Below, piece after piece: positions 2,869 through 42,132 of a stretch of 64,000 nucleotides of DNA. How positions within the stretch are numbered: the first letter of the stretch is position 1; the number at the start of each line of letters is the position of its first letter. The stretch is from Opitutaceae bacterium (GTDB lineage Bacteria; Verrucomicrobiota; Verrucomicrobiia; Opitutales; Opitutaceae). The stretch is from positions 1 through 64,000 of the forward strand of contig JAQUYL010000002.1 in assembly GCA_028691845.1 (NCBI GenBank). The letters run 5' to 3'. The position numbers and the translations under genes are program-made. The notes under the pieces are model-generated. The model was not told the origin of the DNA and ran no database searches. It saw nothing but the letters and a program-made list of their open reading frames with translations.

Positions 2869-3338
2869 CTACGGCGCGGTGGCCGTATCCGGCGGCAGCC
2901 GGCCGAGCACATGCCAGAGCCAGCGGTGGAATCGATGAATGGCGTAGCCGGTCGGCAGAAACATGAGGATGCGGTGGCCGTGCACCGCAGCGATGCCGTG
3001 TGTCGCGCAGAACGCCACAGCGGCAGGAGATGATGCACCCTGTTGCATCCAGACACGACGGACGCCGGTGGCGAGAGCTTCCCGCAGCACCTGCATCGTC
3101 TGCGCTGGCGGAACGACGATCAGCACACCCCGACGGGTTCAGGCAGTGAGGCGAGACTTGGAGCGCGCGGCCGTCCTTCGATAACGGCGGCGCTCGGGTG
3201 GACCGGAAAGATCCGGTAACCGTTGGCCACCAGTCCGCGCAGCGTCCGCTTGCCGAACTTTCTTTCCGTGCGGGAAGTGCCGACAATGGCGAGCGCCTTC
3301 TGCGCCAGAAAATCGTCGACCACATGCCTCGAGGTCAT
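2869..3338 (-). pseudogene. CoA-binding domain protein (YccU-like), frameshifted
   Basis: Two overlapping leftward frames together spell one CoA_binding-domain protein. The N-terminal half (ATG at 3338, VDDFLAQKALAIVGTSRTE) carries the Rossmann-like first strand and glycine-rich loop. The C-terminal half (LIVVPPAQTMQVLREALATG, then VWMQQGASS) carries the second half of the fold. They join near 3120-3130, where a two-base gain (GTGTG for GTG) or one-base loss shifts the frame and gives an early stop. Family members are about 140-150 residues, matching the combined length. The role of the family is poorly defined beyond CoA binding. Whether this is true decay or a sequencing error cannot be told from one sequence. 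Confidence 0.75.
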
Positions 3339-3426
3339 GGTGAAATTGGCGAGGGAGAATGAGGGCTCAACGGAGGAAGGCCGCCGGTTTACCACGGGCC
3401 GCCGCCTGCTGTCGCTATCTGCATGT

Positions 3427-5325
3427 TCAGTTCTGATCCAGCGCCGTGAGGGCCGTGACCAGGGACTCCCACTCGGCCGTGGCGGCGTGCAGCCGGTCGA
3501 CGACCCCGCTCAACTCGCGATTCACCGCCGCCGGTTTGCCGGGTTCCTGGTATGTTTCCGGCGCCTCCAGCCGGGCGGTGAGTTCGCCCTGCCGCTCCTC
3601 GAGTTCGGTGATTTCCTTTTCCAGCGCGTCGACCTGTGCCTGCAGCGCGCGGCGTTGCCTGTTGCGGGCGGTGCGCGCCTCGGCTTCGGCCCGGCGCTGC
3701 TCCTTTGTCTTCGATCCGGATGAAACTGGAGGCGCGGCGGCCCCTGGCTGGGGCCGCGCGTCGGTGAATCCGGCGGTCAGCGCCGCGCGGGCCGAGGAGG
3801 CGCGGGACTTGTCGAGATAGTAATCGTAGTTGCCGGCATAGGGCGTGAGGCGCCCAGCATGGACGTGCAGCACCTGGTTGGCGATGGCCCGGATGAAATA
3901 GACGTCGTGGCTGATGAAGATGAGGGTGCCCTCGTATTGGCGGAGCGCGTTGACCAGCGCATCCGTGCTGGCGATGTCGAGGTGCGTGGTGGGCTCGTCC
4001 ATCAGCAGCAGGTTGGGTGGCGCGAGAAGAAACTTTGCCAGGGCCAGGCGCGATTTTTCACCGCCGGAAAGGACGGAGACGCGCTTGAACACATCATCCC
4101 TGCGAAACAGGAAGCCGCCGAGAATGGTGCGCGCCAGCTGCTCGGTGATCGCCGGGTTTTCCGCGCGCATTTCCATCGCCTCCTCCAGCACTGTGTGCCG
4201 CGGGTTCAGGTTCTCCAGTCGGTTCTGGGAAAAATAGCCGACGCGGACGTTGCTGCCGAGTTCGCGTTCCCCGCCCTGGATCGGGACGAGGCCGGCGAGG
4301 ATCTTGAGCAGCGTCGACTTGCCGGCTCCGTTGGGGCCCACCAGCACCAGGCGCTGGCCGCGCTCGGCCTGGAAATCCAGGTCGCGGTAGACGACGAGGT
4401 CGCCGTAGGCCTGCTGCACCTTGGCGAGGGTCGCGACCTTAAGACCCGAACGCGGCGGCTGGGGGAAATGAAAACGCGGTGCGCTGATGTCGTCCTCGGG
4501 CAGCGCGACGGCATCCTCGCGCAGGCGCTCGATCTGCTTTTCCTTGGACTTGGCGCGCGAGGCGAGGCTGGCCTTGGCGCCGAAGCGGTCGACGAAACGC
4601 TGGAGGTGTGCGATTTCGCGCTGCTGGTTCTTGTAGGCGGAGAGCTGCTGGGCGTGGTGCGCCTCCTTCTGCCGGAGGTAATCGTCGAAGTTGCCCGTCC
4701 AGCGGTAGAGGGTCTGGTTGCGCAGCTCGAGGATGCCGGTGCACAGCTCGTTGAGAAACGCGCGGTCGTGGGAGATGATCACGAGTCCGCCGGGATAATT
4801 CCGCAGGTAGGCCTGGAACCAAAGCAGCGCCTCGAGATCGAGGTGGTTGGTCGGCTCGTCGAGGAGGAGCAGCGTGGGTTCCTGCACGAGCAGGCGGGCG
4901 AGGTGGGCCCGCATCACCCAGCCGCCGGAAAAGGTCTTGGCCGGGCGCTCGGCGTCACTCTCGCGGAAGCCGAGGCCGGCGAGGATCTTCTTCGCCCGCG
5001 GTTCGAGCGTGTAATCCGGGTCGTGCTCATCGAGCGCTTCACCGGCCGCATGATGCGGCGAATGTCCGAGGGCGATCTCCAGGATGGTCTCGGCGCCGGC
5101 CGGCGCGCTTTCCTGGGGCAGGAAGCCGAAGCTGGCGCCCCGTTCCCACTCGATTGTGCCCGCTTCGAGCGAATCCTCACCCAGGATGAGATTGAACAAA
5201 GTGGTCTTGCCCGTGCCGTTGGCGCCGACCAGGCCCAGCCGGTCCGTGCGCTTCACGAACAGCGACACGTCCGCGAACAGGGTGCGCGGGCCGAAGGACT
5301 TGGAAACGCCGGCCAGTGTGAGCAT
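3427..5325 (-). CDS. ABC-F family ATP-binding protein (ribosome-associated)
   Basis: 632 residues with two ABC ATPase domains and no membrane segment. The first has Walker A GANGTGKTT near residue 35, the signature SGGW near 175 and Walker B LLLLDEPTNHLD. The second has GPNGAGKST near 335, LSGGEKSRLALAKF and LLLMDEPTTHLD. The linker between them is basic and helical (the P-site tRNA interaction motif region of ABC-F proteins), and the last 80 residues form an Arg/Glu/Gln-rich coiled coil, as in YheS/Uup-type members. ABC-F proteins bind the ribosomal E site and rescue or regulate stalled translation; some protect against antibiotics. Which subgroup this is cannot be settled by eye. The ATG at 5325 starts a typical MLTLAGVSKSFG beginning. 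Confidence 0.93.
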   Translation of the reverse strand: MLTLAGVSKSFGPRTLFADVSLFVKRTDRLGLVGANGTGKTTLFNLILGEDSLEAGTIEWERGASFGFLPQESAPAGAETILEIALGHSPHHAAGEALDEHDPDYTLEPRAKKILAGLGFRESDAERPAKTFSGGWVMRAHLARLLVQEPTLLLLDEPTNHLDLEALLWFQAYLRNYPGGLVIISHDRAFLNELCTGILELRNQTLYRWTGNFDDYLRQKEAHHAQQLSAYKNQQREIAHLQRFVDRFGAKASLASRAKSKEKQIERLREDAVALPEDDISAPRFHFPQPPRSGLKVATLAKVQQAYGDLVVYRDLDFQAERGQRLVLVGPNGAGKSTLLKILAGLVPIQGGERELGSNVRVGYFSQNRLENLNPRHTVLEEAMEMRAENPAITEQLARTILGGFLFRRDDVFKRVSVLSGGEKSRLALAKFLLAPPNLLLMDEPTTHLDIASTDALVNALRQYEGTLIFISHDVYFIRAIANQVLHVHAGRLTPYAGNYDYYLDKSRASSARAALTAGFTDARPQPGAAAPPVSSGSKTKEQRRAEAEARTARNRQRRALQAQVDALEKEITELEERQGELTARLEAPETYQEPGKPAAVNRELSGVVDRLHAATAEWESLVTALTALDQN

Positions 5326-38814: not shown

Positions 38815-39228
38815 CTAACCCGTGGGGCGAACCGCCAGCCAGCCATAGGCGAGAGTGTGGACAACGCACTCAGCCAGGAACAACTTGTAGCCGAAGCGGA
38901 GCCACGGGGTCGTGAGCACCGGCCGGACGCCGAACCACCGGGTCGGGCCCAGCCGTCCGCCCCAGAAGATCGCCGTTGAGCAACATACGATCCGGGCGAA
39001 GGGCGTGCCAGTGATCAGTGCGGGCGCGAAGAGGAGCGAAATCAGCCCCAGCAACGCCATCGTCGCGCCGGCCGTCATATACGGTTCGAAAGTGAGCCGA
39101 CGGTGGCGGAGTTTTCCAAGGTTAGACTCCCAGTCGGGCGGGATGGGGGTGAGGCACGCGCACAGCAGCGTGACGAAGTGAAACGCCCCCGCAAGGCGCA
39201 CACCCAGAATCCAGAGCGAGTCGCTCAT
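38815..39228 (-). CDS. Four-helix membrane protein, unknown function
   Basis: 137 residues with about four hydrophobic helices (LWILGVRLAGAFHFVTLLCACL, ATMALLGLISLLFAPALI, RIVCCSTAIFWGG and FLAECVVHTLAYGWLAV). The loop WESNLGKLRHRRLTFEPYM is polar. No family is recognised. Starts at the ATG at 39228. It stands between two gaps, on the same strand as hppA. Confidence 0.6.
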   Translation of the reverse strand: MSDSLWILGVRLAGAFHFVTLLCACLTPIPPDWESNLGKLRHRRLTFEPYMTAGATMALLGLISLLFAPALITGTPFARIVCCSTAIFWGGRLGPTRWFGVRPVLTTPWLRFGYKLFLAECVVHTLAYGWLAVRPTG

Positions 39229-39268: not shown

Positions 39269-39430
39269 GGATTTTCGGAAAACGGCAGATTAGCTACGGA
39301 CGACCATCCACGGCGGGGCCCAGCGCGCGACAAGCATATCAACCGGGCCCGGCGACCGGTAATCGCGTACATTGGTGTTATGCCAACGTCCCCTAGCTAT
39401 TAGACTTATCCCGCGAGTGGTCACGGGCAG

Positions 39431-39486
39431 GGCGCGACCGCTGGGCGCGCCGCAGTACCATTCGCGGACGGCCCGGCGGTCCGTCC
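39431..39486. repeat. REP-like pair of inverted hairpins with conserved loop
   Basis: Hairpin A (39431-39451) has stem GGCGCG/CGCGCC around the loop ACCGCTGGG. Hairpin B (39466-39486) read on the minus strand has stem GGACGG/CCGTCC around ACCGCCGGG. The loop is conserved while both stem strands differ in a compensating way. The two units face each other, the typical REP twin layout. Confidence 0.65.
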
Positions 39487-39570
39487 CTACCGCGCCAAAG
39501 TCCAAATCCTACGGGCGGTTGGTATTAATCCGTGGCCAATTGCCTTGGGCCAGAAAACAATAGGCCGTGG

Positions 39571-39627: not shown

Positions 39628-42132
<2,505 letters not shown>

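Follow-up and report, generated by a model that had tools for sequence, protein, structure and literature searches.

Two G+C-rich hairpins lie side by side in the window (the whole 64,000-nucleotide stretch of Opitutaceae DNA analysed here), between two leftward genes: a pyrophosphatase gene (39628-42132, minus strand), which is the upstream neighbour, and an ORF (38815-39228, minus strand) that matches no family. What is this pair, and how did it come to occupy this site? The original prediction held it to be a REP-like element of the kind mobilised by TnpA-REP transposases. Our results bear this out: the element has a GTAG-type foot, the genome contains further copies, and its RAYT gene has one unit on each side, the two being inverted. 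The twin hairpin is very probably a REPIN, that is, a non-autonomous element mobilised by the RAYT (TnpA-REP) of the same genome.

Anatomy of the element

The pair consists of two inverted copies (window 39426-39491) of a 26-base unit with the consensus GGTAGGG-NNNN-ACCGCYGGG-NNNN-CC. The left unit (39426-39451, plus strand) carries the hairpin GGCGCG-ACCGCTGGG-CGCGCC at 39431-39451, and the right unit (39466-39491, minus strand) the hairpin GGACGG-ACCGCCGGG-CCGTCC at 39466-39486; a 14-nt spacer (39452-39465) separates them. The two stems, the near-identical loops and the inverted orientation are exactly as originally described. The supposedly fixed loop is indeed near-identical in both units, but it is partly paired within: in the single-stranded state, the fold of each unit consists of a stem of 6 bp followed by an A·G mismatch, two further base pairs and a GCY triloop. 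Outward of each hairpin a five-base foot stays unpaired in this fold. The right foot is an intact GGTAG, whereas the left one reads GGCAG, a decayed GGTAG with GCAG in place of GTAG. The pair as a whole (39424-39493) folds as one long hairpin (-26.4 kcal/mol, z -3.0). Allowing at most one mismatch, the full 26-base pattern matches the window twice and none of 100 shuffles; at Rfam gathering scores, the window has no match.

Copies in the same genome

The original prediction proposed a genome-wide search, in which a lack of further copies would speak against it. Further copies do exist: across the whole 2.95-Mb genome we found 12 exact units (7 forward and 5 reverse; reversed control 0 + 0), spread over 7 contigs, a low count for a REP family. 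A GT[AG]G stands at the hairpin foot of all 12, as the search pattern required, and the right unit of the window is one of them. Most units of this genome are arranged as inverted pairs (REPINs), and the inverted double pattern occurs at five places, with spacers of 14-19 nt, against none in the control. Two further pairs are less regular: that at C18:72.6 kb is degenerate, and that at C12:102.3 kb is mutated and has a long spacer. Units that are single or truncated occur at C17:112.6 kb and C15:27.3 kb. The number of units rises to 14 when one mismatch is allowed. Of the three matches with two mismatches, those at C12:102335 and C15:27313 have the appearance of decayed copies, and the one at C34:73202, within a gene, was set aside as a probable chance match. 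At up to three mismatches the search returned 28 matches against 17 in the control, and the three-mismatch matches were discarded as being at chance level. The nine-base loop alone is not enriched in the genome (66 + 62 matches against 76 + 89 in the reversed control) and is therefore uninformative as a marker of the family.

At one of these copies (G000:C18:72618, near position 1500 of locus L034) the GTAG foot appears to supply the TAG stop codon of the upstream ORF, an arrangement published for other GTAG REPs. By eye, this ORF ends in an arginine-rich, PEP-CTERM-like tail.

The RAYT transposase

The genome also holds the transposase gene that the original prediction suggested looking for. 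A profile search with Pfam Y1_Tnp gave one match, whose product belongs to the NCBIfam equivalog REP_Tyr_transpos (92.9 bits, cut-off 80); beside this single Pfam match, the search for RAYT relatives counted a second RAYT-like match in the genome. The protein aligns to the E. coli TnpA-REP structure 4er8 (E 3e-8), its sole solved relative by sequence, and keeps the HUH histidines, the W-Q...D-H..R stretch, and the catalytic tyrosine followed at the fourth position by an asparagine; PMC6006769 describes what the equivalent residues do in the E. coli enzyme. One REP unit stands directly before the gene and another, inverted, directly after it, both of the same class as the units of the window.

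Hairpins on both flanks, as judged by a strict test, are present at 17 of 38 RAYT loci. Other RAYTs of the family (L066-L084) are flanked by different GTAG hairpin classes, for example with perfect 9-bp stems and TCC or GCC triloops. Since RAYTs in several family genomes are flanked by other hairpins, the match between RAYT and REP is not one to one.

Compensatory changes in the stems

The original prediction saw compensatory change in the two stems of the window. Two stems cannot show covariation, but the claim does hold across genomes. We collected 73 distinct units from the loci available, and in 58 of them the four-base arms are completely complementary, against a shuffle mean of 17.5 and a maximum of 31 in 10,000 shuffles, which do not model the relatedness of the units. 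A first test on distinct arms gave a weak result, with 6 of 19 combinations paired (shuffle mean 1.7, maximum 9), and we therefore repeated it on 54 combinations taken from the matches listed in the family and phylum searches. In this larger set 17 combinations are fully paired, compared with a shuffle mean of 2.5, and none of 20,000 shuffles, which again do not model relatedness, reached as high; counted by cell, with G-T included, 188 of 216 are paired (shuffle mean 118). Thus, the stems change in a compensatory way that keeps the palindrome.

Distribution across genomes

The repeat and the transposase also go together across genomes. In a family sample of 200 genomes, which includes that of the window, the exact unit is present in 67, in up to 93 copies, with a single control match across all 200, and RAYT relatives are present in 139. 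Both occur in 58 genomes, the REP only in 9, the RAYT only in 81 and neither in 52 (Fisher p 0.00016, kinship not modelled). All 27 genomes with at least 10 units carry a RAYT, and in the nine REP-bearing genomes without a RAYT match the count ranges from 1 to 9 units. Where the RAYT is closest (E up to 1e-55; 13 genomes, among them that of the window), the median is 24 units, compared with 0 for the remaining 187 genomes, again with kinship not modelled. In a phylum sample the exact unit was found in 17 of 145 genomes; 15 members of that sample are family genomes, and 5 of these have a match. A search with the RAYT led to named loci in Verrucomicrobia and Kiritimatiellae, including Oleiharenicola and another Opitutaceae member.

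A RAYT locus beside lpxB

One copy in this genome lies inside a gene. A REP pair (L002:3815-3885) sits in frame within the lpxB ORF (2993-4246), in a variable loop of LpxB directly before a conserved SGT stretch. The stretch that received the insertion is variable in all relatives seen; by eye, the LpxB proteins of G059 (L127) and G078 (L142) contain degraded REP-like sequence at this position, and those of G135 and G073 have none there. Intragenic REPs are known, the GTAG ones being most numerous in O. terrae (PMC3733652), and in-frame REP insertion into flexible loops is discussed in PMC6006769.

The same gene also adjoins the RAYT (L002:2517-2996). At ten loci (L055-L063 and L065), which hold ten of the eleven best-scoring RAYTs, the gene order is oxidoreductase, RAYT, lpxB; they come from ten genomes of six genera (g1, g2, g16, g39, g40 and g45). 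The oxidoreductase is of the Gfo/Idh/MocA type, and the RAYT lies between it and lpxB (L002:2440-3000; L055-L063, L065). This order is absent from the remaining 28 RAYT loci that we inspected. A REP-like hairpin can be seen by eye on both sides at all ten loci, seven of which pass the strict test on both sides. At L065 (G120), serine occupies the position of the catalytic tyrosine, and the right hairpin is decayed. Approached from the lpxB side, the 30 best lpxB loci include 28 with an oxidoreductase match and 4 with a RAYT in between; among the 24 gaps without a RAYT, one (L128) contains a REP pair alone.

Do these RAYTs share one history at this site? On a RAYT tree built from 38 rows minus L167, which is too short, those at the lpxB site cluster, with 2 changes against a shuffled mean of 8.9. 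Most forks are weak, and G073 and G188, which belong to one genus, are not grouped. A single ancestral origin, judged from the 2 changes on this tree and the 1 change needed in 26% of bootstrap trees, is neither shown nor excluded. Mean identity among the ten loci is 0.62 for the RAYT, 0.81 for the oxidoreductase and 0.66 for LpxB. Distances between RAYTs correlate with those between oxidoreductases (Mantel r 0.49, p 0.002) and between LpxB proteins (r 0.51, p 0.0008), the ten rows being few for such a test. Syntenic RAYTs with changing yet palindromic REPs have been reported in gammaproteobacteria (PMC2817692), and RAYTs are described as single-copy, vertically inherited genes (PMC8049555). 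We tentatively offer a scenario that we regard as rather unlikely in full: a RAYT resident in the lipid A operon, between a UDP-GlcNAc-type oxidoreductase gene and lpxB, may have been inherited with it across genera, its flanking REPs kept paired by compensatory change, and may have repeatedly seeded REP pairs into LpxB at its variable loop, in which case a cell-envelope enzyme may be remodelled by a transposase that has been domesticated. The orthologous RAYT locus itself, in ten genomes of six genera, provides ground for testing why RAYTs are kept.

Origin of the window copy and alternative explanations

The REPIN reading draws on a repeat family, a RAYT, the physical linkage of the two, their co-occurrence across genomes and compensatory stems, all of which are observed. 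For cleavage and movement by the RAYT we infer, by analogy with E. coli TnpA-REP, the following course. In single-stranded DNA, such as the lagging-strand template, each unit would fold with the mismatch in its stem; the HUH/tyrosine transposase would recognise the GTAG foot together with the irregular hairpin, cut beside it, and then copy or move the pair to a new site. In the case of the E. coli enzyme, both GTAG and the stem bulge are required (PMC8266576). Several observations count against this reading, namely the 81 RAYT-bearing genomes without this exact REP, the lack of a RAYT match in 9 of 67 REP-bearing genomes, and the flanks of the window copy, which are common to up to four others, so that a different element may have moved it. 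The low copy number, the other hairpins beside RAYTs of several family genomes and the strict flank test, with 17 of 38 loci, weigh in the same direction.

The last of these points deserves closer attention. The pair is enclosed in a larger repeated sequence, some 146 bp in length (39380-39525), whose ends, ATGCCAAC and GTTGGTAT, are near inverted repeats. The window copy and the copy on G000:C24 agree over this length from end to end (ATGCCAAC/ATACCAAC to GTTGGTAT) at 91% identity, and partial partners share the right arm (C31 and C18) or the left arm (C15:27.3 kb). The window copy may thus have spread in a different way. Compared with the C24 copy (L035), it lacks about 8-9 bases at 39485-39500, which in C24 lie between two GGTAG direct repeats; such a gap is what slippage or GTAG-to-GTAG rejoining would leave.

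We consider it possible, if less probable than not, that a different transposase spread the window copy inside a MITE-like repeat with the ends ATACCAAC...GTTGGTAT, the REP pair being a passenger. Besides the shared 146 bp and its partial partners, the right-arm pattern speaks for this, occurring four times in this genome and, at up to three mismatches, in none of the 199 other family genomes. However, the inverted ends are a near-match of no more than about 8 nt, and the search for a target duplication gave no clear one. A MITE-like origin also leaves unexplained both the link to the RAYT and the copies that lack the arms (in lpxB, at C15:41.0 kb and on the RAYT flanks), and so competes only as an account of how this one copy moved. 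A more general objection to the REPIN reading would be that the hairpins persist because of a role in RNA, as a terminator or mRNA 3' end, and that their spread is incidental. The pair does lie downstream of the pyrophosphatase gene, and most REPs in the literature have such a position behind a gene (PMC3733652), but this gene has its own terminator-like hairpin (39603-39578, minus strand), located before the REP pair and outside the repeat, and we rejected a terminator role for the pair on this ground. Moreover, no T-run follows the REP, copies occur within lpxB and around the RAYT, and the GTAG feet, although they lie beyond the paired bases, are conserved, all of which makes an RNA role very improbable. 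Chance formation of G+C-rich palindromes would agree with a loop no commoner than its reversed control, but has a negligible probability in view of the 12 exact copies of the full unit against none in that control. A REPIN served by the RAYT therefore remains our preferred explanation of the element. The window copy itself is probably old and weakened, because one of its feet is GCAG and it is spread within a longer repeat.

Comparison with known systems

By every feature tested, the window element belongs to the GTAG REP/REPIN/RAYT systems. As an element class it is ordinary, and this kind of system has already been published: Di Nocera et al. (2013, PMC3733652) describe 24 GTAG REP families, several of them in the verrucomicrobium Opitutus terrae. 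Our literature searches, which missed the abbreviated 'O. terrae' of that paper, found almost nothing on this REP in Opitutus. We provisionally count the widespread REP reported here as a new member, set beside the 24 families by their described features and not by the loop (ACCGCYGGG). What our analysis adds is a RAYT/REP pair with genome-by-genome co-occurrence and covarying stems, extended to a large verrucomicrobial set.

The features described for the GTAG REPs in PMC3733652 are those of the window family: a GTAG foot, a 6-9 bp stem, compensatory subfamilies, head-to-head dimers, copies within genes and REPtrons. Likewise, the REPINs of Bertels and Rainey (2011, PMC3116915) are inverted REP doublets whose members are a short distance apart and can fold together into a single long hairpin, in genomes with a RAYT; those described there number in the hundreds, whereas here we find five clear and two degenerate pairs, whose halves have different stems. 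Insertion in frame into coding sequence is shared with intragenic REPs and with the RPE of Rickettsia, but RPEs carry CGTC rather than GTAG and are without a transposase of their own (PMC3733652). The E. coli REP/TnpA-REP system has in common with ours the GTAG foot, a conserved stem mismatch and an HUH-Y transposase flanked by REPs. It differs in having an AA-GC bulge (PMC8266576) in place of the single A·G mismatch and GCY triloop, and the RAYT found here has D at the position of E100 of TnpA-REP.
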